NCBI GenBank assembly: GCA_020431405.1
Contig: JAGQIK010000067.1
Coordinates: 1 to 53,400, forward strand
Length of the DNA: 53,400 nt
Origin: Myxococcales bacterium
Lineage (GTDB): Bacteria; Myxococcota_A; Polyangia; GCA-2747355
Reading direction: 5' to 3'
A program made the translations under genes and the position numbers. Below, one piece after another: positions 1 to 12,302 of this stretch. Each line of letters starts with the position of its first letter. The first letter of the stretch is position 1. The notes under the pieces are model-generated. The model worked only from the letters and a program-made list of their open reading frames with translations, ran no database searches and had not been told where the DNA came from.

Positions 1-1
1 C

Positions 2-2680
2 GATCCGTTCTGGCGCGTGCGTTTCGCCGCGCTTCAAGGGCTCTCGCTGCTGGTGCTGGCCGACGAGAAACAAGGCGACGCACGCGGCGCGGACGACGCG
101 CTGCGCGAGGCGGCGCTCGCCGAGCGCGCGGGCGTCGACGAGGCTGCCGACGCCGCGATGCGTTACCTCGCGCTGGCGCTCGACGCGGCGCCGCTCGAGG
201 CGCTCGAAGCAGCCGAGCAGGCTGCCCGTCGCGCGCCGCTGCGCCGCGACTTGCCGCCGCCGCGCCACCCACTGCTCGCCGACGCGGATCCTGCCGTGGT
301 CACCGCGCAGCTCGAGACGCTCGACGTGGGCGCGCTCGACGCGCGCGAGCTGGTCGGGCTGCTCGCCGACTCGCACCGCGCGCTGCGACGGGTCGCGGTA
401 CGCCGGCTCGAGCAGCTGATCGCGACCGACGAGACCGATGGCGCCGTCGAGGCGTTGACGTTGGCGCTGGGCTGGCTCGACGAGCCACGCGTCCCACACG
501 CGGCGGAGGCGGTGCGTTCGCTGCTCTCTCGCCTCGACCGCCGGGCCGACGCGCTGGCGTCGGCCGTGCTGCGCGAGGCGGCGGCGCGCGTCGAGCGCGG
601 CGCGGCGATCACGACGCCGCTCGGCGTGGCGTGGGCCTGCGAGCGCGCGGCGCGGCGCAGGATCGAATCGCTGCGCCCGCAGCTGCGCACGCTGGTGGCG
701 GCGTCCGATGCGGCCGCGTGCGACGAGCCGTGGACCAGCGCGACGCGCGCGCTCGGTGGGCTGCTCGTCGCAGGCGAGCGCGAGCGCGAGGGCGCTCGCG
801 ACGACGACGACGAGGCACGCACGGCGCTGCTCGCGTCGCTGACCGCGCGCCGCGTGGCGCTGCGCGCGGCGGCCATCGATGCGCTCGCCGAGCTGGCGGA
901 CGAGGCGTCGCTGGCGGCGCTGTCACAGTGCCGCTTGCTCGGACTGGCCGCCGACGGCCAGCGCAGGCCGCACCTCGCAGATGTCGCGCTCGTGCAGGCC
1001 TGGGTGCGCCGCCGGCTGAGCGAACCGCTCGGCGCGGCGCTGCGCGAGCGGCCGCTGGCCGAGCGGCCCGCGAGCGTGGCCGCGGCGCTGCTCGACGGTG
1101 CGACGCAGCTGTCGCTATCCGACGACGTGGCCGCGCGTCGCGAGGAGGCGCTGCGAGCGCCAGACCCGTGGGTGCGTGCGGCGGCATACGAGGCGCCGCG
1201 CGCCGCCGAGGCGCTCGGCGCCGACGCCACCTGCGGCGAGGACAACCCGCTGGCGCGCCGGGCGGCGCTGCTGGCGCTTCTGCCCTCGCTCGCCGCCGAC
1301 GCGGCGCAGCGCACGCGCTGGGCCTCGCGGCTCGCTGGTGAGGCCGACGCCTTCATGCGCAGCCGCGCGGCGCGGCTGCTCGACGCCAGCGGCGACGAGG
1401 GGCTCGCCGTGGCGCTGCGCCTGGCGCACGACGAGGAGCCGATGGTGCGCGCGTGGGCGGCGAGCGCGCTCGAGTGCTGCGATGGCGATGACGATGACGC
1501 GCTCGCGCCGCGGCTCGATGTCTTGCTCGGCGGCGATTCGTTGGACACGCACGCGCGCCTTTCGGCCTACAGCCAGCGCCTGCGCGGCCCCGGGGACGTC
1601 GAGCGCCTGCGTGCGGCCCTCGCCGAGGAAACCGATCCGCGCTTGCGCGAGCACCTCGAGACCATCGCCCTCGCCATCGACGACGCGGCGGCTGACCGAG
1701 CGCTGGCGCTGGCGACACGCGAGCGCGAGCGTACGGCGCGCGAGCGTGCGGCGCGGCCTCGGCCACGCGAGCGCACACAGCCGGCGCTGGCAGCGCGCGC
1801 GCTGTGGCGCGGCGGACCGGAGATCACACCGCTGGTGCTCTCGGGTGCCAACGACCTGCACGAAGGCTCCTTGCGCGTCGCCTCCGAAGCGGGCGTCGAC
1901 ACGTTCTTCTGGGAGCCCACCTACCGCGCGCTGACGCCGTTTCTCGCGCGCCGCCCCGAGCTGCGCGTCATCGCCGGCAGCTACAACGCGGATCCGCGCG
2001 GCGTGGCGCGCGACCTCGAACGCGCGCGCCGCGTGCTGGGCCGCGACCGCATCGATGTGTTTCTGCTGTTCTGGGCGCGCTCGCCAGCGCGCGTCGGCAG
2101 TGCGGCCTACGAGATGATGGCCAAGCTGAAGAAGAGCGGCCGCGTGGGCGCGATCGGCTTTTCGTCGCACCACCGCGACATCGCCGCCGACGCGATCGCG
2201 CGTGATCCGTGGGACGCGGTGATGGTGCGCCACAGCGCCGCGCACACGGGCGCCGAGGCCGAGCTGCTGCCGCTAGCACGCGCGCGTGGCACGTCGGTGC
2301 TGACCTTCAGCGCCCTCTGCTACGGGCGCATGCTGCGCGCTGTGCCCGGCACGGTGGACGACGGTGCCGCGTTGCCGACGGCCGTCGACTGCTATCGCTA
2401 CAACCTGAGCCAGCCCGGCGTCAGCGCCGTGATCAGCGCGCCGCGCCGCCACGCCGAGCTGCTCGCCAATCTCGGCGTGCTCGAGGGAGCACTCGGCGAG
2501 GAGGCGCTCGACGAAGTGACCCGAGGCCGCCTGCTCGCGCACGGCGCGCGGGTGCGCGCGCACAATCACGCCTTCAACCGCTTCGTGCGCCGCGGCGACG
2601 TGTGGGGCACGCCGCGCGAGGTCGCGCTTCGCTGGCTCGACGAGCAGCAGGCCCAGCGCGAGCAGGAGGACCCGCGATGA
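2..2680 (+). CDS. HEAT-repeat protein fused to a degenerate aldo/keto reductase domain (5' end outside window)
   Basis: The reading frame is open to the window edge, and the residues before the first GTG (position 17) already read like a HEAT helix (DPFWRVRFAALQ), so the N-terminus is missing. About 600 residues of Ala/Arg/Glu/Leu-rich helical repeats with recurrent D-P-x-V/W-R-x-x-A turns fit HEAT repeats, a protein-interaction scaffold. From about nt 1810 the protein becomes an aldo/keto reductase-type TIM barrel: GVDTFFWEPTY, DRIDVFLLFW, GRVGAIGFSS and QPGVSAVISA match successive AKR strands. The usual Asp and Tyr have candidates (about residues 628 and 636, counted from the GTG at 17), but the usual active-site Lys and His positions read VIAGSY and LLFWAR, so catalysis is doubtful. 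The stop overlaps the next start as ATGA, so it is translationally coupled to the reverse transcriptase gene. It may be a sensor or scaffold (inference). Confidence 0.8.
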   Translation, partial: DPFWRVRFAALQGLSLLVLADEKQGDARGADDALREAALAERAGVDEAADAAMRYLALALDAAPLEALEAAEQAARRAPLRRDLPPPRHPLLADADPAVVTAQLETLDVGALDARELVGLLADSHRALRRVAVRRLEQLIATDETDGAVEALTLALGWLDEPRVPHAAEAVRSLLSRLDRRADALASAVLREAAARVERGAAITTPLGVAWACERAARRRIESLRPQLRTLVAASDAAACDEPWTSATRALGGLLVAGEREREGARDDDDEARTALLASLTARRVALRAAAIDALAELADEASLAALSQCRLLGLAADGQRRPHLADVALVQAWVRRRLSEPLGAALRERPLAERPASVAAALLDGATQLSLSDDVAARREEALRAPDPWVRAAAYEAPRAAEALGADATCGEDNPLARRAALLALLPSLAADAAQRTRWASRLAGEADAFMRSRAARLLDASGDEGLAVALRLAHDEEPMVRAWAASALECCDGDDDDALAPRLDVLLGGDSLDTHARLSAYSQRLRGPGDVERLRAALAEETDPRLREHLETIALAIDDAAADRALALATRERERTARERAARPRPRERTQPALAARALWRGGPEITPLVLSGANDLHEGSLRVASEAGVDTFFWEPTYRALTPFLARRPELRVIAGSYNADPRGVARDLERARRVLGRDRIDVFLLFWARSPARVGSAAYEMMAKLKKSGRVGAIGFSSHHRDIAADAIARDPWDAVMVRHSAAHTGAEAELLPLARARGTSVLTFSALCYGRMLRAVPGTVDDGAALPTAVDCYRYNLSQPGVSAVISAPRRHAELLANLGVLEGALGEEALDEVTRGRLLAHGARVRAHNHAFNRFVRRGDVWGTPREVALRWLDEQQAQREQEDPR

Positions 2681-4119
2681 ACTTGCCAGCCCTGCTGCTC
2701 GAGCTCCGACCGCTCGTCGCCGATATCGACAAGAACTGGGATCGCATCGTCGAGCTGCTCTCGACGCACAAACGGCTCGCCGAGTACGAGGTCGCGCGTT
2801 TCTTCGTCGCACGCCACGTGGAGTCCAGGGTCACCGAGCTGCTGCGCAGCCGCGACCCGCAGCAGCGCGCGCGCGGTGTGAAGATGCTCGAGCTAGCCTA
2901 CCCATCGACGCGCGCCGGCAAGCACCTCCGCCATCTGGTGCGTGACGCCGATGTCGAGGTCGCGCGCGACGCCACCGAGGCGGTCAGCAACCTCGACATC
3001 GACGACGTCGCGCTGCCCGATTTTCGGCTCAAGCCGCCGCGCGATCCGCGACATGGCTGGGGTGGCTGGAACCAGAGCAGCTGGCGCTTCGGCTTCCCGC
3101 TCGCCGACTGGGTGCGACGCAAGAAGCGCGTCGGACCCAAGAAGCTCAAGCTGCCCAAGATCGCCGACAAGGCGGCGCTCTTCGAGCTGCTCGGCATCGC
3201 CGACGAAAAGCACTACAAGCGCCTAATCCGACCCGGCGCGCAGAGCGGCGCACCCTACGTCGAGTTCACCGTGCCCAAGCGCTCGGGCGGAGAACGCATC
3301 ATCTCGGCGCCGCGCGCCGAGCTCAAGCGCGTGCAGCGCACGATCCTCGACAAGATCCTCGCCAAGATCCCCGTGCACGACGCGGCGCACGGCTTCGTGC
3401 CTGGCCGCTCGACGGTGACCAACGCGCAGCCGCACGTCGGCGCGTCGCTGGTCGTCAAGATCGACCTCACCGAGTTCTTCCCCTCGATCCACTTTCGCCG
3501 CGTCTACGGCTTGATGGGCTACTACGGCTACGAGCACGAGGTCGCCACCGCGCTGGCCGCGCTGATGACCCACCGCATCAAGCTCGACGACGGCAAGCGC
3601 ATGGTCGAGACGGGCCTCGTACCGCAAGGCGCGCCAACGTCGCCCGCGCTGGCCAACATCGTCTGCCGTCGCCTCGACGCGCGCCTGAGCGGCCTCGCGC
3701 AGCGCGCCGGCGCGCGCTACACGCGCTACGCCGACGACCTGACCTTCTCGTTCGCCGACGCGCCGCCGGACAAGGGGCTAGGGCGCTTCCTGTGGTGGGT
3801 CGACGCGGTCTGCCAGCAAGAGGGCTTCGTCGAGAACGCGGGCAAGCGGCGCGTGCTGCGACCGAGCCACCAGCAGCGCGTCACCGGCGTGGTGGTCAAC
3901 TCGCAGCTGAGCGTGCCGCGCAGCGAGCGGCGGCGCTTTCGCGCGATGCTGCACAACTGCCGCCACAAGGGCATCGCCTCGCAGGCCAAGCAGCACGGCC
4001 GCGACGAGGCAGAGTTTCGCGACTACCTGACGGGCTTCGCGTCATACGTGAAGATGGTGCAGCCCGAGCTCGGCAACAAGCTCGCAGGCGAGGTCGCCGA
4101 CCTGCTGAAAGGAGCGTAG
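2677..4119 (+). CDS. Retron-class reverse transcriptase with N-terminal helical extension
   Basis: 480 aa. The catalytic core runs from about residue 190 to 430: the first Asp motif KIDLTEFFPS (261-270), VPQGAPTSPALAN (315-327), and the YADD active site (351-354). Two signatures typical of retron RTs are present: NAxxH (NAQPH, 249-253) and VTG (402-404). Residues 1-115 are helical and partly HEAT-like, and 124-150 is a Gly/Trp/Arg-rich segment; this makes it longer than compact retron RTs (about 320 aa) and close to the long myxobacterial type. Retron RTs copy part of a structured RNA into branched msDNA, usually with partner proteins in phage defence. The ATG overlaps the upstream stop (ATGA) and AAAGGAG before the next gene follows within its end, so it lies inside an operon. 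No space for msr-msd is present on either side. RT identity is secure; retron function is an inference. Confidence 0.93.
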   Translation: MNLPALLLELRPLVADIDKNWDRIVELLSTHKRLAEYEVARFFVARHVESRVTELLRSRDPQQRARGVKMLELAYPSTRAGKHLRHLVRDADVEVARDATEAVSNLDIDDVALPDFRLKPPRDPRHGWGGWNQSSWRFGFPLADWVRRKKRVGPKKLKLPKIADKAALFELLGIADEKHYKRLIRPGAQSGAPYVEFTVPKRSGGERIISAPRAELKRVQRTILDKILAKIPVHDAAHGFVPGRSTVTNAQPHVGASLVVKIDLTEFFPSIHFRRVYGLMGYYGYEHEVATALAALMTHRIKLDDGKRMVETGLVPQGAPTSPALANIVCRRLDARLSGLAQRAGARYTRYADDLTFSFADAPPDKGLGRFLWWVDAVCQQEGFVENAGKRRVLRPSHQQRVTGVVVNSQLSVPRSERRRFRAMLHNCRHKGIASQAKQHGRDEAEFRDYLTGFASYVKMVQPELGNKLAGEVADLLKGA

Positions 4120-4123
4120 CGCG

Positions 4124-5491
4124 ATGGCGAGCGTGATGGTCATCGTCAGCAAGGCGGCCTTCAAGAACGACGTCGTCACCGCCGAGGGCAAGCAGGGCGA
4201 GCTCGGCGATGTCTGTCCGATCCCGCACTACCGCAGCCGTCACAAGAGCATCGACACGCTGCAGGAGGGCGGCGCGCTGTTTCTGGTCACGGTCCGTCCG
4301 CCCGAGCAGCTGTGGCTGTGCGCGGTGCTCGAGTCGCCGCGCGCGCTGTCCGATGGCTGGTACGGCGAGCCCAACGTCGTGCCGATCACCGACATCAGCG
4401 CGCTGCGCGACAAGATCAAGTTCACCTCGGGCAAGGGCATGAGCCAGAAGGCGGGTGCGCTGGCGATGTCGCTGCAGACGCCGCGCGCGCTCACCGACGA
4501 GGACGTAGCGCTGATTCGCGGCGCGTACGGTGGCAGCGCGGCAGTCGCTGCGGCCGCGGACGATCCGCTGCCCGACGGCGAGGAGGCGGAGCTTCTGCGC
4601 GCCGTCGTCGAAGCACCCAGCGACTACGCGCCACGCATCGTCTACGCCGACTGGCTCAGCGATCGCGGCGATCCGCGCGGCGAGATGATCGCGCTCGCCT
4701 GCAAGCTGCGTTCGGGTGACATCTACTTCAGCGAGCGCGAGGCCGCGCGCGCCCGCGTGGGGCAGCTTCTGCGCGCGCACGAGTCGCGCTGGGCCGGCGA
4801 GATGGGCCTCCCCGACGGCACGGTGAGCCGTCGTCACTGGTCGGCCGGCTTTGTCGAGTCGATCGAGGCGACGTCGGCGTCGAGCTTTCTGCGCGTGGCC
4901 AACGCCGCCATGGCGCGCACGCCGATCCTGCGCATGTCGCTGCTCGACATCACGGCGGGCCAGCTCGAGCAGCTGGTCAGCGCGCCGTGGGCCGCGCGCC
5001 TTCAGGGCCTCAAGCTGCTCGGCGACTCGGGCGAGAAGATCGCCGAGATCTTGGCTGGCGCGCCGTCGCTGGCCAAGCTCGAGCGGCTCAACCTGTGCTC
5101 GATGGAGCTTTCGCCCGACGCCGCCGAGGCGCTCGCTTCGTCTTCACACCTGCGCAACCTGCGGCGCCTGGCGCTGACGGCGAACGCCATCGGCGACGAA
5201 GGTGTCGCGGCGCTGGCGCGCTCCGAGGTGCTCGCGCGCTGCGAGGTGCTCTACCTGGCGGCAAACGAGATCACCGACGACGGCGTGCGCGAGCTGGCCG
5301 CGTCGCCTTATCTCAAGTCGCTGCGCGAGCTCGGCCTCGGCAACAACGAAGACATCAGCGCCAAGGGTCTCGACGCGATGCTGCAGTCGACGGCGATGCC
5401 GCAGCTGCGGCGCGTCGAGCTCGACGCCACCGCCATACCGTGGAAGCGCCAGAAGGACGCGCACGCGCGCTGGGCTTCTGTACGTTTCTAG
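4124..5491 (+). CDS. TIGR02996-domain leucine-rich-repeat protein with unassigned N-terminal domain
   Basis: 455 aa. Residues 1-130 form a compact alpha/beta domain (VMVIVSKAAFKND ... LWLCAVLESP ... VVPITDIS) that I cannot assign; its length and strand pattern would allow a PUA/EVE-like fold, but that is a guess. Residues 153-195 match the TIGR02996 repeat-companion domain (LLRAVVEAPSDYAPRIVYAD then WLSDRGDPRGE), common in myxobacteria and planctomycetes next to repeat domains. Residues about 235-445 are leucine-rich repeats of ribonuclease-inhibitor style (LRNLRRLALTANAIGDEGV, LYLAANEITDDGVRELA). The start has an excellent ribosome binding site, AAAGGAG ending about 10 nt before the ATG and lying in the 3' end of the RT gene. 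A recognition role within the RT operon is plausible but unproven. Confidence 0.85.
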   Translation: MASVMVIVSKAAFKNDVVTAEGKQGELGDVCPIPHYRSRHKSIDTLQEGGALFLVTVRPPEQLWLCAVLESPRALSDGWYGEPNVVPITDISALRDKIKFTSGKGMSQKAGALAMSLQTPRALTDEDVALIRGAYGGSAAVAAAADDPLPDGEEAELLRAVVEAPSDYAPRIVYADWLSDRGDPRGEMIALACKLRSGDIYFSEREAARARVGQLLRAHESRWAGEMGLPDGTVSRRHWSAGFVESIEATSASSFLRVANAAMARTPILRMSLLDITAGQLEQLVSAPWAARLQGLKLLGDSGEKIAEILAGAPSLAKLERLNLCSMELSPDAAEALASSSHLRNLRRLALTANAIGDEGVAALARSEVLARCEVLYLAANEITDDGVRELAASPYLKSLRELGLGNNEDISAKGLDAMLQSTAMPQLRRVELDATAIPWKRQKDAHARWASVRF

Positions 5492-5503
5492 CCGCGACCA
5501 GCC

Positions 5504-8110
5504 GTGAGTGACCACGAGCGCGAGATCGCGCGCTTGCGCGAGGCGCCGGATGACGACGAGGCGTGGCTCGTGCACGCTGACGCGCTGGTGGCGCGCGGCG
5601 AGCCGCGCGGTGAGCTCGCCCAGCTTCAGCATCTGGCCCAGCACGAGCGCGACGTCGAGCGTCGAGCGACGCTCGAGGCCGAAGTCGCGAGCTACGTGCG
5701 GCAACACGCCGAGGCGCTGCTCGGCGATCTGCGTCTCTCGTCAGCGCTGACGCAGCTGCGCTGGCGCGCGGGCTACATCGTGGGCCTACGCTTCGCCGAC
5801 GGCGACGGCGTGGTGACAGCTCCCGAAGCGCTGCTCGAACGGCTGCTCGCGTCGCCCGCGTGCGTGTTGCTGCGCACGTTGACGGTGGGGCAGCTGGCGC
5901 AGCTCGAAGGCGACTACGGTCCGCTGGTCGCCGTGCTGCGCAGCGCCGCGCGGCGCGACGTGCCCGCCACGCGCTCGCTGCGCGAGCTGAGCCTCGGCAG
6001 CGGCGTCGACGGCAGCCCCCTCGAGAGCGGGCTCGATCGGGCCTCGCTCGACTACGGCGCGGTGGCAGAGCTTTGCGGCGAGCTAAAATCGCTGCGCGCG
6101 CTCGCGCTCGAAGGTGTGTCGGAGAACCTGCCGCTGGCGGCCTTTCCGGCAACGCTCGAGCGTCTGGCGCTACGCAGCGCCGAGCGCGGCGACAGCCTCG
6201 CCGAGCAGCTCGCCGCGCTCGATACGCTGCGCGGCGCCCTCGCCGACCTCGACCTGCGCGGTGGCACACTCACCGATCGCGGCGCCGCCGCGCTCGCGGG
6301 CGCCAGCTGGCCACGCCAGGTGACGCTCGACCTGCGCGAGAACCTGCTCGAGCACGAAGGTGAAGCGCTGCTGCGCGAGCTGCCCGAGCGGGTGCGTGTG
6401 CGGCTGACGCCGCAGCGGGCGGCCGACGAGCTCGCCGAAGGCGGCCTCGGCAGCGTGCTGCAGGAGCCGCCGGGAGGCCGCTGCGCGCGGCGCCTGCGCG
6501 CCGGTCGCGCGCTCGTCGGGGCGTTTCGCTTCGACGACGCCGTCGAGGCGTTCGAGCTGGTGCTCGACGAGCCGGGGCTCGATGTCTATGTCGAGCGCAG
6601 CGTGCGCGTCGGGATCTGCCGCGCGCTTCGCGACGGCGGCCGCGTGCGCGAGGCGCGCTCGCAGCTGGAAGCACTGCTCGCCTTCGAGCGTGGCGTGGGC
6701 TCGCTGGTCGACGAGCTGTGGGCGCTGGTGATGATCGCCATCGTCGACGAGGACCTCGGTCAGATGCAGTCGTCGTCGGCGCACTACGCGCGTGCGCTCG
6801 AGCGGCTCGACGCGCACCGCGCCGCCTCGGTCGAGCAAATCGAGCCCATCGCCCTGCGGCGCCTGCGCGCGCAGGCGCTGGGTGGGCAAGCCAAGGCGCA
6901 GCTCACGCGAGGCAGACCGCGCGAGGCGATCGCCGCTTACGAGCGCGTGCGCGCGCTGCACGAGGACAACGGCGATGCGCAGCTGGTCGCCGAGGTCGAC
7001 GAGCGCATCGCCAGCTGCGAGCAGATGATGGGCAACTACGCCGCCGCGGAGGTGCGCTACCGCGCCGCGCTCAAGGGCTACAGCGCGGCCAACAACCAGC
7101 GCGCGGCGGCCAAGGCGCTGGGCAACCTGGCGACGATCTACTGGCACCTCGGCCGCTGGAACGACACCGAGAAGACCTACCTCGAGGCGCTCGAGGCGTC
7201 GCGCACCGTGGGGGACCGGCGCAACGAGGCGACGGTGCTGTCCAACCTCTGCCAGGGCTACATGTCGCGCGGGCGCAGCGACGAGGCCGAACGCTACGGC
7301 GCGCGAGCGCTGGCGCTCTTCGAGCAGCTCGGCCATCGGGCAGGCGCCGCGCGGGTCGAGCACTACCTCGCCGACTGCGCCACCATCCGCGGCGATCTCG
7401 AGCTGGCCTCGCAGCGCATGGCGCGCGCGCTCGCCGTCTACCGCGAGCTCGGCGACGAGCGCGCCGAGGCGCAGGGGCTCGCCACGCTCGGCAGCATCGA
7501 GCTCGATCGCGACGAGCTCGAGGCCGCGCGCGCCACACACGCGCGCGCGGTCGAGCTCTACCAGCGCTGCGCAGATCGCTACGGCGAGAACATGGCGCGC
7601 GTAGGTGCCGGCGGCGCGGCGCTCGGGCTCGGCGATCACGAGGCCGCGCGCGACGAGCTCTCGCGGGCGCTCGCTGGCTCGGAGGCGCTCGACAACGACC
7701 GCGGGCGCGTCGTCGCGTTGGCCTACCTCGGCCTCGAACGTTTCGTCGCGGGCGACGCGGCGGCGGCGCTCGAGCACTACGACGCATCGCTGGCGCTGTG
7801 CAGCGAGCAAGAGAGCCCGCACCAGCGCGCGCGCACCTGGGCCTGGCAAGGGGCTGCCTACGCGGCTGCCGGTGACCACGGCGCCGCGCGCGACGTGCTC
7901 GCAAAGGCCGCCAAGGCGTTCGAGTCGCTCGATGACGGGCAGGGGGGCGAGCAGCTCGCGGTGGCGCGCGCCTACGCCGCGCTGCTCGCCGACCCGACGG
8001 GCAGCCGCGCCAAGACCAGCGCGCGCGCCGCCGCCAACGCCGAGTATGTCGGCCTCGAAGCGCGCCTTCTGCGCGCCAAGCTGCGCGAGGCGCTCGAGCT
8101 AGTGACTTAG
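5504..8110 (+). CDS. TIGR02996 / LRR / TPR protein
   Basis: 868 aa, starting at GTG 12 nt after the previous stop. Residues 4-45 are a second, more divergent TIGR02996 copy (EAPDDDEAWLVHADALVARG), followed by a degenerate leucine-rich region (about 95-300) related in layout to the upstream gene. From about residue 320 to the end the protein is made of tetratricopeptide repeats, clearest in the segments NNQRAAAKALGNLATIYWHL, EATVLSNLCQGYMSRGRSDE and EAQGLATLGSIELDRDELE, similar to large bacterial TPR regulators. No enzymatic domain is visible. It is the last gene of the + strand operon and its 3' end overlaps the convergent S41-like gene by 12 bp at a near-palindromic CTAGTGACTTAG. It probably acts as an interaction scaffold; substrate unknown. 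Confidence 0.85.
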   Translation: MSDHEREIARLREAPDDDEAWLVHADALVARGEPRGELAQLQHLAQHERDVERRATLEAEVASYVRQHAEALLGDLRLSSALTQLRWRAGYIVGLRFADGDGVVTAPEALLERLLASPACVLLRTLTVGQLAQLEGDYGPLVAVLRSAARRDVPATRSLRELSLGSGVDGSPLESGLDRASLDYGAVAELCGELKSLRALALEGVSENLPLAAFPATLERLALRSAERGDSLAEQLAALDTLRGALADLDLRGGTLTDRGAAALAGASWPRQVTLDLRENLLEHEGEALLRELPERVRVRLTPQRAADELAEGGLGSVLQEPPGGRCARRLRAGRALVGAFRFDDAVEAFELVLDEPGLDVYVERSVRVGICRALRDGGRVREARSQLEALLAFERGVGSLVDELWALVMIAIVDEDLGQMQSSSAHYARALERLDAHRAASVEQIEPIALRRLRAQALGGQAKAQLTRGRPREAIAAYERVRALHEDNGDAQLVAEVDERIASCEQMMGNYAAAEVRYRAALKGYSAANNQRAAAKALGNLATIYWHLGRWNDTEKTYLEALEASRTVGDRRNEATVLSNLCQGYMSRGRSDEAERYGARALALFEQLGHRAGAARVEHYLADCATIRGDLELASQRMARALAVYRELGDERAEAQGLATLGSIELDRDELEAARATHARAVELYQRCADRYGENMARVGAGGAALGLGDHEAARDELSRALAGSEALDNDRGRVVALAYLGLERFVAGDAAAALEHYDASLALCSEQESPHQRARTWAWQGAAYAAAGDHGAARDVLAKAAKAFESLDDGQGGEQLAVARAYAALLADPTGSRAKTSARAAANAEYVGLEARLLRAKLREALELVT

Positions 8111-9343
8111 CGCGGCCTCGAGCGCGGGGTCTTTGCCCGCCAGCAGCTCCGCCGAACGAACGCCGACGGTCACGTCTGGCGAAAGCGTCGCCGGATCGCC
8201 GTCGACCTTCTTGAAGAACTTGGTCGAGTAGAAGACGCGCAGCCCGCTGCGGGGCAGCCGGAAGCTGCGCAGCTCGCCGTAGTGATTTGGCTTGCCGCTG
8301 GTGGGCTCGCCCACCAGCTTGGCGCCCGCCAGCTGTCGAAGCTCGATGGCGTTGAGCAGCGCCGACGAAAACACCGCGCGGTCGATCAGCACGCGCAGCG
8401 CGAGGCGCGCGCGCCGCGCCGCCAGGCCGTTTACCAGCGGGCGCAGCACGCGCGAGTTGCCGCCGCCGTTGCCGCGCAGATCGACGATCACGCGTGCGAC
8501 CTTCTTCATGTCGATGAAGCGCAGCATGCCGGGCGCAAAGCGCGTCATCGGGTTGCCGCGCATCTGCGTGCAGCTGCGGTAGCGCAAGTAGACGGTGTTC
8601 TTGTCGGCGAGGTAGGTGTTCCAGTAGACGAAGCGCGGCTTCTGATCGCGAAGCGGCGTGCGCGCCATCTTGACGCGGCGCCAGCGCACCGAGCGCGCGT
8701 CGCGCGCGGTCGCCACCTCGACGGCGCGCTCGCTATCGCCGGACTTGACCACCACGCGCGCCTTGTCGGCGCCCGCGGCCAGTGCGCCGAGCCGCCGCAG
8801 CAGCGGCGCCAGAACCACGTAGCGGGGGGCCTCGAGCTTGCGTCCGGCGACGTTGTCGGCCGGCAAGAACGCGGAGGCGCCGCGCAGCAGCTCGTCGATG
8901 GGCTTGCCGCCGATGCTGAGCAGCCGCGCGCCGACCATATCGGCGTGCGCTTCAGCGGCGGCGATGATCGTCACGCCATCGTCGAACCAGTAGAGCGCCA
9001 GCGGCAGACGCGCCATGCGCGGCAGCTCCAGGCGCGTGTGCGGATCGCCGACAAACGCCACCAGCTCGGCCAGCGAGAGCGCAGCCTGCGCACCGTCGCG
9101 CTTCGCCAGCGCGCGCGCGATCTGCGCCTTCTTGGCCAGCAGCTGCGCGCGCGAGCGCTTGAAGTAGAGGTTCTTGTGCTTCGTCGCGAGCCCGGAAACC
9201 AAGGCGTCGAGGTCAGCGAGCCAGGCGCCTGCGTTGGCACCCGTAGCGGTGCCCGTGCCGCTGCCCGTGCCCGTGCCCGGCCGCGGACAGCCGGCCAAGA
9301 CCAACACCAACACCAACACCAACGCGATCCCGAGCGCGCGCAC
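8099..9343 (-). CDS. S41 (C-terminal processing protease)-like lipoprotein
   Basis: 414 aa, starting at GTG. Residues 1-19 are a lipoprotein signal with lipobox LAGC, so the mature protein should be membrane anchored. A Thr/Gly-rich linker follows. The segment GDPHTRLELP and the C-terminal core VIVDLRGNGGGNSR, AVFSSALLNAI and GEPTSGKPNHYGE match peptidase family S41 (tail-specific/tricorn-like), with the candidate nucleophilic Ser in the FSSA segment and the usual glycine-rich DLRGNxGG strand. The PDZ domain typical of CtpA is weak or reduced (about residues 125-160, ARLLSIGGKPIDELL). It starts 7 nt after the NrsF-like gene stop on the same strand, so it may be cotranscribed with the sigma/anti-sigma pair and could belong to its regulon (inference). 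Confidence 0.82.
   Translation of the reverse strand: MRALGIALVLVLVLVLAGCPRPGTGTGSGTGTATGANAGAWLADLDALVSGLATKHKNLYFKRSRAQLLAKKAQIARALAKRDGAQAALSLAELVAFVGDPHTRLELPRMARLPLALYWFDDGVTIIAAAEAHADMVGARLLSIGGKPIDELLRGASAFLPADNVAGRKLEAPRYVVLAPLLRRLGALAAGADKARVVVKSGDSERAVEVATARDARSVRWRRVKMARTPLRDQKPRFVYWNTYLADKNTVYLRYRSCTQMRGNPMTRFAPGMLRFIDMKKVARVIVDLRGNGGGNSRVLRPLVNGLAARRARLALRVLIDRAVFSSALLNAIELRQLAGAKLVGEPTSGKPNHYGELRSFRLPRSGLRVFYSTKFFKKVDGDPATLSPDVTVGVRSAELLAGKDPALEAALSH
9240..9325. repeat. Two adjacent short tandem repeats in the lipoprotein signal and linker
   Basis: A 6-bp repeat (ACCAAC on the + strand, about four copies, 9299-9323) encodes the alternating Leu-Val of the signal peptide core, and directly next to it a GCCCGT-type repeat (9249-9278) encodes the Gly-Thr linker after the lipobox. 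Copy number changes in either would keep the frame and only alter hydrophobic-core or linker length. Confidence 0.7.
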
Positions 9344-9350
9344 CCGCGCC

Positions 9351-10106
9351 TCAGCTCCCGCGCCGCCCTCGTCGCACGCGCCGCGCGATCAACACCACCA
9401 CCAACGCGGTCAGCGACGCCACCACCGGCATCGTCATGTGGCCCAACAAAAGGTGCATGCGCCCGGTGATGGGGCAGTGCAGAAACAGCCCGACGTAGCC
9501 GGCCAGCGCGCCCGCGGCGGTCGCCAGCAAGAGGCTCGTCTCGCGCCGCCCGAGCCCCGACAGCAAGAGCCCGACCGGGATCCCTAGCGCGCTGCCGTAC
9601 ATCAGACAGCCCAACGCGCGCTTGGCCAGATCGTCGCCGACGCCCAGCAGCGACGCCGGATGCCCAGCGTGCGCCGAAGGCATCAGCGCCGACGCCACCG
9701 GCAGCGCCACCAGCATCAGCACCAGCAGCGGGATCTCGAGCGGGATGCTGGGCGGCGGCTTGTGCATCGGGCGCAGCCAGCGGCCGATCGCGAGCAACGC
9801 CAGCACCAGCGGCACGCACAGCTCGATCATCAACCGAATCTGCGGATAGGCGCCCGCGTCCACGCGCAGCTTGATCGCCCCCGCGGCGCCTGCGAGCAGC
9901 ACGGCCAGCGTGGCGAGCGCGAAGCGAAGCCCCGTGGAGCGGCTCGACAGCCACGCCCCCACGCCACGTTCGGCCGCCAGCGCCGCATCGACCGAAGTCG
10001 AAAGGCCGCTGGGCGCAGCGACGCCCTCGTCCAGCTGCAGCGCCGCTGCCAGCTTTTCGCGGATGTCGTCGAACCCGTCGCCGGGCTGTTCGAAGTGCTC
10101 GCTCAC
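9351..10106 (-). CDS. NrsF/DUF1109-like membrane anti-sigma factor
   Basis: 251 aa from a GTG 31 nt downstream of the ECF sigma stop; a longer reading to 10232 would overlap the sigma gene and its extra residues look non-native. The first about 75 residues are cytoplasmic and acidic; then six hydrophobic segments follow, as in the NrsF family of anti-sigma factors that hold an ECF sigma factor at the inner membrane. The conserved last loop with His-Cys is present (GLFLHCPITGRMHLLLGH), as is a short basic tail. The adjacent sigma gene upstream on the same strand supports the pairing. The signal sensed is unknown; in related systems it is often oxidative or metal stress, and a peroxiredoxin/Dps cluster lies just beyond. 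Confidence 0.78.
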   Translation of the reverse strand: MSEHFEQPGDGFDDIREKLAAALQLDEGVAAPSGLSTSVDAALAAERGVGAWLSSRSTGLRFALATLAVLLAGAAGAIKLRVDAGAYPQIRLMIELCVPLVLALLAIGRWLRPMHKPPPSIPLEIPLLVLMLVALPVASALMPSAHAGHPASLLGVGDDLAKRALGCLMYGSALGIPVGLLLSGLGRRETSLLLATAAGALAGYVGLFLHCPITGRMHLLLGHMTMPVVASLTALVVVLIARRVRRGRRGS

Positions 10107-10137
10107 TTGCGTCTTGTCGCTCTTGGCTCGCGCCGAG

Positions 10138-10665
10138 CTACTCCAGAAGCTCTTTGAGTCGTTTGTAGGCGCGGTGCGCCCGAACCTTTGCTGCGCTGCG
10201 CGAGACGCCGAGCGCTTCGGCGACCTCGGCAAACGGCAGCTCCATGAACCAATGCATCTCGATCACGTCGCGCAGCTTGGGCGGCAGCTGAGCTACCGCG
10301 TCGCGCACGCGCCGCGCCTCGCGCTCGCCGTCGAGCCCGCCGCCTGGATCTGACGCCTTGCCGGCGTGCTGGTCGGCCTCGAGCGGCACCTCCACGCGAC
10401 GCTTGCGCGAGCGCAAGTAGTCACGTTTTACGTTGTACGCGATCGTCATCAGCCACGGCCGCACTTTGCCTTTGTCGGGGCGAAAGTCGCGACGCGCGCG
10501 GTGAAGCTGCAAGAACGTCTGCTGCACGAGATCGCGCGCCACGTCGTCGCTCAGCCCGCCGCGCCGCAGCGCGCGCCACACCAGCGACGAGTAGCGGTCG
10601 AACAGCTGGCCGAAGGCCTGTCGGTCGCCGGCGGCGTAGGCCGCCATCAGCGCTTCGTCGGTCAT
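10138..10665 (-). CDS. ECF RNA polymerase sigma factor
   Basis: 175 aa. I chose the ATG that begins MTDEALMAAYAAGD, the usual first line of region sigma-2; an in-frame start at 10782 adds 39 atypical residues. Region 2 is seen in AFGQLFDRYSSLVWRAL, DLVQQTFLQLHRAR and KVRPWLMTIAYNVKRDYLR, and region 4 in LPPKLRDVIEMHWFMELPFA followed by a helix-turn-helix ALGVSRSAAKVRAHRAYKRL. It would direct RNA polymerase to a stress regulon and is probably restrained by the NrsF-like protein encoded 31 nt downstream. No strong ribosome binding site is visible at the chosen ATG, so the exact start is uncertain. Confidence 0.9.
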   Translation of the reverse strand: MTDEALMAAYAAGDRQAFGQLFDRYSSLVWRALRRGGLSDDVARDLVQQTFLQLHRARRDFRPDKGKVRPWLMTIAYNVKRDYLRSRKRRVEVPLEADQHAGKASDPGGGLDGEREARRVRDAVAQLPPKLRDVIEMHWFMELPFAEVAEALGVSRSAAKVRAHRAYKRLKELLE

Positions 10666-10812
10666 ACCCGACGCCGCTTGTGCGCTGTGTGCTGCCGCGA
10701 CCGATGAACTGGCGTGCTCGCCCACGATGGGGCGAATGTGCCACGGCAGCGGAAGATACAAAAGTCGAGCGATCCCGATCACCCCGATACCTACGAATCA
10801 GGGGAGGAGCGG

Positions 10813-11157
10813 TTACTCGCCGGTGACGTTCTTGAGGCGGTTGTCCAGGCGGCTGATGCCGCTTCCGGGGAAGGTCTTGACGCGCTCGCCGCCCTTGTAG
10901 ATGACGTTGAAGGGCAGCGCGTCGACGTCCGCTAGCCAGCCGTTTTCACGCTTGAAGCTGGTCAGACCACGCTGATCGAGCGTGATCTTGCCGAACCGTA
11001 CCTGCGGCCAGAAGGCCTCGTCGCGCAGCGCTTCACCGAGCTCCTCGGTCCAGCGCTGACACGACGCGCAGTCGGACTTGCCGAGCATCAACACCGCCAC
11101 CGGCGCGCCGACGAAGTCTCGCCACGCGTCGCCTTCGAGCTGCTCGAGTCTGCTCAT
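10813..11157 (-). CDS. Thioredoxin-like protein
   Basis: 114 aa, the usual length of a single thioredoxin domain. The redox motif is CASC in VLMLGKSDCASCQRW, followed by the strand VRFGKITLD and a cis-proline region (DALPFNVIYKGGERV). There is no signal peptide, so it should be cytoplasmic. The CxxC differs from CGPC, suggesting a specialised partner. It lies 39 bp downstream of the peroxiredoxin gene on the same strand and is a candidate electron donor for it (inference). The start has an AAGGGGG stretch about 5 nt upstream. Confidence 0.85.
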   Translation of the reverse strand: MSRLEQLEGDAWRDFVGAPVAVLMLGKSDCASCQRWTEELGEALRDEAFWPQVRFGKITLDQRGLTSFKRENGWLADVDALPFNVIYKGGERVKTFPGSGISRLDNRLKNVTGE

Positions 11158-11196
11158 GAGGCCCCCTTCGCAGGTACGGTCGGAAACTACATCGCG

Positions 11197-11721
11197 TCAG
11201 CCGACGAAGCCGTCGCCCTTCTTCCAGTCCGCGCCGCACAGGCCGCCGCTCTGGAAGGCCTGCACCGTGCGCAGCACCTCGTTGGGGCTGCGTCCCACGG
11301 CGGTGTCATTGACGGCTACCGAGCGGACGATGCCCTTGTCGTCGACCACCACGGTGGCGCGGTAGGCGATGCCGGCGTCCTCCTTGAGCACGCCGAAGGC
11401 GCGGCTCACGGAGTGGTTGGTGTCGGCGAGCACCGGGTGGGTGATCGTCTCGGCGAAGGTGTCCTTGTCGTTGAACCACGCTTTGTGGCTGAAGAACGAG
11501 TCGGTGCTAGCGCCGATGACGGCGATGTTGTCCTCGGCGAACTCGGGCAGCAGCTTCTGGAAGCCGCGGATCTCGGTCGGACACACGAACGTGAAGTCGA
11601 GCGGGTACCAATAAAGCACGTGCCACTTGCCCGCGTAGTCCTTGCTCGAGACGGTCTTCTGCTCGCCGTTGACATACGCAGCAGCGCTCCACTCGGGCGC
11701 CTTCTGGCCGATCTGGGTCAT
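11197..11721 (-). CDS. ahpC: 2-Cys peroxiredoxin (AhpC/TSA family)
   Basis: 174 aa. It reduces peroxides to water or alcohols in the cytoplasm. The peroxidatic cysteine lies in YPLDFTFVCPTEIRGF and the resolving cysteine in the C-terminal GGLCGADW, a typical 2-Cys arrangement; the conserved Arg that activates the cysteine is in GIAYRATVVVDD. The start has GAGGAG 6 nt upstream. It lies between dps and a thioredoxin-like gene, all on the - strand, forming a peroxide-defence cluster. The symbol is used in the family sense; the alkyl hydroperoxide reductase partner AhpF is not in the window. Confidence 0.92.
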   Translation of the reverse strand: MTQIGQKAPEWSAAAYVNGEQKTVSSKDYAGKWHVLYWYPLDFTFVCPTEIRGFQKLLPEFAEDNIAVIGASTDSFFSHKAWFNDKDTFAETITHPVLADTNHSVSRAFGVLKEDAGIAYRATVVVDDKGIVRSVAVNDTAVGRSPNEVLRTVQAFQSGGLCGADWKKGDGFVG

Positions 11722-11831
11722 GGATGTCTCCTCGCTTGCCGAGCCATTCAGCGAGTGACTCGGTTGTGGGTTTCAAAAACGTCTATTGCTGATCGCGAGC
11801 TGCGATCCGTACCGCCGCGCGCGTCGTCGCG

Positions 11832-12302
11832 TCAACCGTCGAGGTGGGCGCGCAGCATCCAGGCGGTTTTCTCGTGCAGGTTCAGTCGCTGGTTCATCAG
11901 GTCGGCGGTGGCGTCGTCGCCCGCGTCGGCGGCGCCGTGCAGCAACGAGCGCGCCGAGCGCGCCAGCGACTCGTGATCGGAGAGCAACGCGCCGAGCATC
12001 TGGCGGTCGCTCAGCTTGCCGCTGGCCTCTTCGAGCGACGACAGCTCGCGCATGGCGCTGAGGCTGCCCGGTGCGTAGACGCCGAGCGCGCGCACGCGCT
12101 CCGCGATCTCGTCGATGGCCATCGCCAGCTCGGTGTACTGCGTGCCGAACAACTCGTGCAGCGCCTGGAAGTGCAGGCCGGTCACGTTCCAGTGAAAGCC
12201 TTGCGTCTTGAGATACAGCGCGTAGGTGTCGGCCAGAAAGCCCGTGATGCTGCGCGCGAGCTCGGCACGTTTTGCTTGGTCGATGCCGGTATTGATCGTC
12301 AT
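11832..12302 (-). CDS. dps: Dps-family DNA-protection ferritin
   Basis: 156 aa. Dps forms dodecamers that bind DNA and oxidise Fe(II) with hydrogen peroxide. The ferroxidase helix pattern is seen in GFHWNVTGLHFQALHELF and the partner Asp/Glu in MAIDEIAERVRALG. The start (MTINTG) is fixed by AAGGAG about 7 nt upstream; an in-frame ATG 60 nt further up lacks one. A TACAAT candidate -10 element sits about 20 nt upstream of the ATG (12323-12328). It is divergent from a double cNMP-binding protein, sharing a 201-bp AT-richer intergenic region, and precedes ahpC. A 6-bp stem (11791-11796 with 11802-11807) lies 25 bp past the stop but has no close T run. Confidence 0.93.
   Translation of the reverse strand: MTINTGIDQAKRAELARSITGFLADTYALYLKTQGFHWNVTGLHFQALHELFGTQYTELAMAIDEIAERVRALGVYAPGSLSAMRELSSLEEASGKLSDRQMLGALLSDHESLARSARSLLHGAADAGDDATADLMNQRLNLHEKTAWMLRAHLDG

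Follow-up and report, generated by a model that had tools for sequence, protein, structure and literature searches.

The window analysed here, the 53,400-nucleotide stretch of contig JAGQIK010000067.1 from a Myxococcales draft genome, opens with four co-directional open reading frames on the forward strand, spanning positions 2–8110. Gene calls reproduce their coordinates and, with them, the layout proposed in the first-pass annotation of this DNA: an ATGA overlap at 2677–2680 joins gene 1 to gene 2, while gaps of 4 nt (4120–4123) and 12 nt (5492–5503) separate gene 2 from gene 3 and gene 3 from gene 4. Because the contig begins at base 1 of the window, gene 1 (2–2680) is truncated at its 5' end; the open frames of its homologues extend for about 930–1030 residues. 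A gene on the reverse strand (8099–9343) converges on gene 4 and shares 12 nt with its 3' end. At related loci of lower GC content, genes were identified from tblastn matches and open frames.

Gene 1 encodes a HEAT-repeat protein with a C-terminal pseudo-aldo-keto-reductase domain (AKR, 1796–2596), and is referred to as HEAT-AKR hereafter. Domain searches return PF00248 (8.8e-12) together with weak HEAT matches, profile comparisons retrieve both HEAT/alphaRep and AKR structures, and the AF2 model resembles the PP2A scaffold as well as AKR barrels, the AF2 models (pLDDT 64 and 60) being of modest quality and serving for domain class only. PADLOC has no match for this gene. Within the catalytic tetrad Asp-Tyr-Lys-His, the positions of Asp, Lys and His are replaced in all HEAT-AKR homologues (FFWEP, GS/T and LLFW in the alignment with the window protein). 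Because these catalytic residues are gone, yet FWEP, SxHxR and other motifs are invariant among the homologues, the AKR domain probably serves for binding or as a scaffold. At many related loci a gene for a small TPR/CLCxxCL protein lies 5' of HEAT-AKR; in the window genome it would fall beyond the contig edge.

Gene 2 (2677–4119, 480 residues) was initially recognised as a retron-class reverse transcriptase (RT) from its NAxxH, YADD and VTG motifs, an assignment that the comparisons support. The three motifs are present in the translation, as NAQPH at residues 249–253 (3421–3435), YADD, the catalytic motif, at 351–354 (3727–3738) and VTG at 402–404 (3880–3888); the protein matches RVT_1 (3.1e-20) and the solved retron RTs, with E-values down to 1e-34. 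Its best PADLOC model is RT_XIII (4.8e-115), which covers residues 155–477 only and scores 383 bits, versus 525–624 bits for true members of type XIII. The preceding residues 1–105 (2677–2991) form an all-helical, HEAT-like domain that is specific to, and conserved across, the clade of the window RT, with six helices in the AF2 model (pLDDT around 80) and a weak match to HEAT_2. Full-length comparison, including the N-terminal 150 residues or so, delimits a distinct set of RTs: members within the class have E-values of 4.6e-108 or lower, and the nearest class RTs outside the clade, in a search of the phylum, lie at about 4e-75. In a tree of 42 rows, from which the broken RT of genome G327 was excluded, the 27 closest RTs and a sister group of five stand apart from the group containing type XIII RTs with support of 100/100, and the type XIII RTs encoded elsewhere in the window genome fall in that other group. 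On this phylogenetic evidence, the clade of the window RT is separate from type XIII retrons and well supported. Three loci of the sister clade (L058, L059 and L060) have an FGE-sulfatase-type gene after the RT, with a 4-nt overlap in two of them. As to the broken RT of G327 (L056, about 8457–9868), its frame is interrupted near residue 375, by sequencing error or recent decay, and eight ncRNAs are still present in that genome.

Gene 3 (4124–5491) combines TIGR02996 (2.6e-14) and LRR sequences with a new, uncharacterised N-terminal domain (4124–4534), which shares 45–53% identity with six homologues and has no Pfam family and no relative in the PDB (best E-value 0.23); PADLOC gives no match for the protein. 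Full-length homologues directly follow the RT in four other genomes (G415, G416, G421 and G422), and homologues of the TIGR02996-LRR part adjoin the RT in further ones. Because the N-terminal domain occurs in 20 of the 27 genomes that have the window-type RT versus 12 of the 291 other genomes of the class, gene 3 is, by its distribution, a frequent partner, genuinely but more loosely tied to the system. Gene 4 (5504–8110) encodes a TIGR02996/LRR-like protein with TPR repeats (TPR_12, 3.4e-34; weak TIGR02996/LRR), to which PADLOC assigns a generic TPR model and a weak match of 0.058. Related loci contain no full-length homologue of it, only short TIGR02996/LRR matches, and it is probably a co-directional neighbour that is not a component of the system.

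The first-pass annotation had joined the four genes in one system, and had suggested searching for RT homologues and their partners in other genomes. This search covered 318 genomes of the class, mostly drafts, with thresholds of E ≤ 1e-85 for the RT and E ≤ 1e-3 for the ncRNA model R1 described below. The RT is found in 27 genomes, which are exactly the 27 with R1 matches; since relatedness inflates such counts, it should be added that they represent 13 of 152 genera. With the AKR domain as query, 26 loci exceed 150 bits and the following match drops to 129.6 bits; 25 of the 26 lie in the 27 RT genomes. The two RT genomes without HEAT-AKR are G415, which is 73% complete, and G416, in which 210 bases of contig precede the first ncRNA. 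The sole HEAT-AKR homologue outside the RT set, in G374 (L110, C13:58724–59482), is found in a genome with no RT or ncRNA of the window family, and no R1 match lies near it. The dedicated partner that is among the criteria for retrons is therefore found, as judged by presence only, in 25 of 27 genomes, and HEAT-AKR with the RT is, on this distribution, a real conserved partnership. The proposal of a single system thus stands for genes 1 and 2, extends more loosely to gene 3, with its full-length homologues after the RT, and is not supported for gene 4.

As described, retrons are compact and encode RNA, RT and effector together in cis. In relatives of the window locus, a canonical msr-msd RNA usually separates the HEAT-AKR gene from the RT, occupying the interval that corresponds to the ATGA overlap of the window (2677–2680), where the ncRNA is absent. 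The elements of this RNA follow the order a1, TAGC at the start of msr, an msr stem (CGCGATGCAACGTCGCGG-like), the msd hairpin, GCAAGTAG on the 3' side and a2. Nine copies served to build model R1, which detects others, often as tandem pairs just 3' of HEAT-AKR, with E-values that are to be taken as rough. Pairing is kept in 92.8% of cells across 56 copies, with double changes in 247 cells versus 71 in shuffles, figures that lean towards structure given that the alignment was fitted to R1. No retron family of Rfam matches the window or a cis ncRNA of the relatives. In one genus, the tandem ncRNAs are separated from the RT by a YhgA-like (Transposase_31) gene (L045:7050–8147, also L043, L046 and L049).

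How, then, would the RT of the window obtain its template? A search of window positions 1–12000 with filters off yields no match higher than 7.4 bits, and no ncRNA is found in the window as a whole; a cis-encoded msr-msd with its a1/a2, placed 5' of the RT, is a criterion for retrons that most relatives display and this locus does not. The 11.2-Mb genome of the window (G000) contains, at places distant from the RT, two strong and intact solo matches to R1, one of 85.8 bits (C87:3697–3866) near gyrB- and pepA-like genes and one of 70.5 bits (C568:62552–62724) adjoining a sigma-factor-like gene, these gene names being read from translations. Both lie inside contigs, in ordinary gene surroundings with no RT or HEAT-AKR neighbours, and their a1/a2 helices differ in sequence while pairing well in each case. 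Also encoded in this genome are two canonical type XIII retrons composed of HEAT-ARM/WGR, SWIM and RT (L072 on C531, L073 on C550), which offer a helpful contrast from within, and a further RT on C105; any of these enzymes could serve the solo RNAs. Counting against such use, R1 has no match at these three RT loci and none in genomes of the class without the window-type RT.

The ncRNA lies immediately before the RT in about 15 genomes and within a few kb after HEAT-AKR in six; another six (the window genome, G236, G327, G483, G415 and G422) have none at the RT locus, G415 being the weakest case with an RT contig of only 3.4 kb. Genomes with the split layout have up to eight dispersed elements each. 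In G236, G327 and G483, HEAT-AKR and an ncRNA just 3' of it form one unit and the RT and the TIGR02996-LRR gene another, additional ncRNAs standing solo beside ordinary genes; G223 and G349 have HEAT-AKR and the RT on different contigs. The trans layout occupies at least three places in the tree, namely the window genome, the pair G236/G483, and G422 with G415 within one genus. The a1 and a2 segments of 22 solo copies pair with each other at a mean of -47.6 kcal/mol, versus -31.2 with swapped partners, and the cis copies behave similarly (-40.6 versus -27.6 kcal/mol); in L091 and L093 the pairing is no better than in swaps. Six comparisons of sites shared within one genus, among G236, G327 and G483, of which five concern solo copies and one the AKR-linked copy, give identities of 0.63–0.84 for the ncRNA and 0.32–0.70 for the flanks, a rough contrast since flanks may include coding sequence. 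The ncRNA exceeds both flanks at five of the six sites, which argues against the solo copies being relics; the exception is L077/L084, with 0.70 in the 3' flank and 0.63 in the ncRNA. Hexamers resembling -10 elements precede 7 of the 22 solo ncRNAs, where 1.9 are expected, a mild and weak excess.

Taken together, the sequence comparisons indicate that the window carries the protein-coding half of a retron, one whose family is akin to type XIII. The explanation we consider likely is that the template RNA of this family is not in cis at the window and that the RT uses dispersed msr-msd elements in trans. Because no RNA adjoins the RT and matching templates stand solo far off in the genome, a single RT probably acts on several templates scattered across it. 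One system would comprise the msr-msd RNAs, the HEAT/pseudo-AKR protein, the RT, which has a HEAT-like domain at its own N-terminus, and often the TIGR02996-LRR protein; within it, the window RT would prime on at least two solo msr-msd genes, those of C87 and C568, to produce several different msDNAs. In the complex that may then assemble from RT, RNA and msDNA, HEAT-AKR would act as a scaffold or sensor and the LRR protein would be the recogniser or the effector, in a guard role directed most plausibly against phage. On a bolder formulation, about which we are evenly divided, the system would be a 'trans-retron', in which a single RT operon serves distinct msr-msd genes kept vertically across the genome, yielding several msDNAs that share one HEAT-pseudoAKR/LRR apparatus, possibly for stable cellular sensing beyond phage defence.

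Among the other explanations, an ordinary type XIII retron with divergent partners is the least improbable, though unlikely. RT_XIII is indeed the best model for the core of the window RT, and a HEAT-type protein is encoded upstream of it, but PADLOC finds neither HEAT-ARM_XIII nor SWIM_XIII in genes 1, 3 and 4, and just one homologue of the family, L085, has a weak HEAT-ARM match (3e-6). HEAT-AKR takes the place of HEAT-ARM and SWIM, the N-terminal domain of the RT is different, its clade is separate, the ncRNA is possibly dispersed, and two true type XIII loci coexist in the same genome. Next in probability, and likewise unlikely, comes a decayed retron, in which the window locus would have lost its ncRNA and function, leaving solo ncRNAs as relics or retrotransposed copies. 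It would suit the position of the solo elements between unrelated housekeeping genes, and such an origin was once proposed for Nannocystis exedens, with Ne160 as a precedent; against it, the motifs of the RT and the operon are intact, the split layout recurs in several lineages, and the solo copies retain a1/a2 pairing, surpass their flanks in conservation at most shared sites and contain a1/a2 segments that are absent from msDNA.

Slightly further down the scale of unlikely readings, a cis ncRNA could lie just 5' of HEAT-AKR, outside the contig, or in a gap of the assembly, with the solo elements as incidental extras. The contig does start inside gene 1, the draft leaves the region 5' of this gene and about 4% of the genome unseen, and G349 combines one copy beside its RT with three on another contig; but the relatives carry their ncRNA downstream of HEAT-AKR, not upstream, and G236, G327 and G483 have none beside RTs that are well inside contigs. 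Chance adjacency of the four genes is very improbable: gene 4 is not conserved, as it would predict, but the three-way co-occurrence over 318 genomes and the synteny of gene 3 contradict it, so that it is refuted for genes 1 and 2 and largely so for gene 3.

Mx162, Mx65, Sa163 and Ne144 are cis retrons. They resemble the window family in having a retron msr-msd RNA and in an extended RT N-terminus (PMC6868368). By the account of Simon et al. (2019; PMC6868368, citing Lampson and Rice 1997), Retron-Nex1 (Ne160) of N. exedens consists of msr-msd repeats with no RT within a kilobase, for which duplication and insertion by a distant RT were suggested. As far as that account goes, and by analogy of layout, Ne160 is the closest precedent for dispersed retron templates; it concerns one species, whereas the window family spans several genomes, in which RT and partner genes are linked and the solo copies bear signs of selection. 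The literature searched, in which subscription papers were scarcely covered, contains no HEAT-AKR retron and no HEAT-AKR partner of the four cis retrons. If the reading of templates used in trans is true, a family whose RNA departed from the operon on several occasions would show retron RTs to be capable of serving many templates in trans; the dispersed copies, apparently under selection, could explain the orphan msDNA repeats described for N. exedens in 1997. It also predicts HEAT-pseudoAKR, TIGR02996-LRR and CLCxxCL proteins as new partners, which would escape surveys that recognise retrons by an adjoining ncRNA. The CLCxxCL domain, elsewhere encoded by its own gene before HEAT-AKR, is fused to the N-terminal domain of gene 3 at two loci (L045:570–1214 and L049 from 16608).
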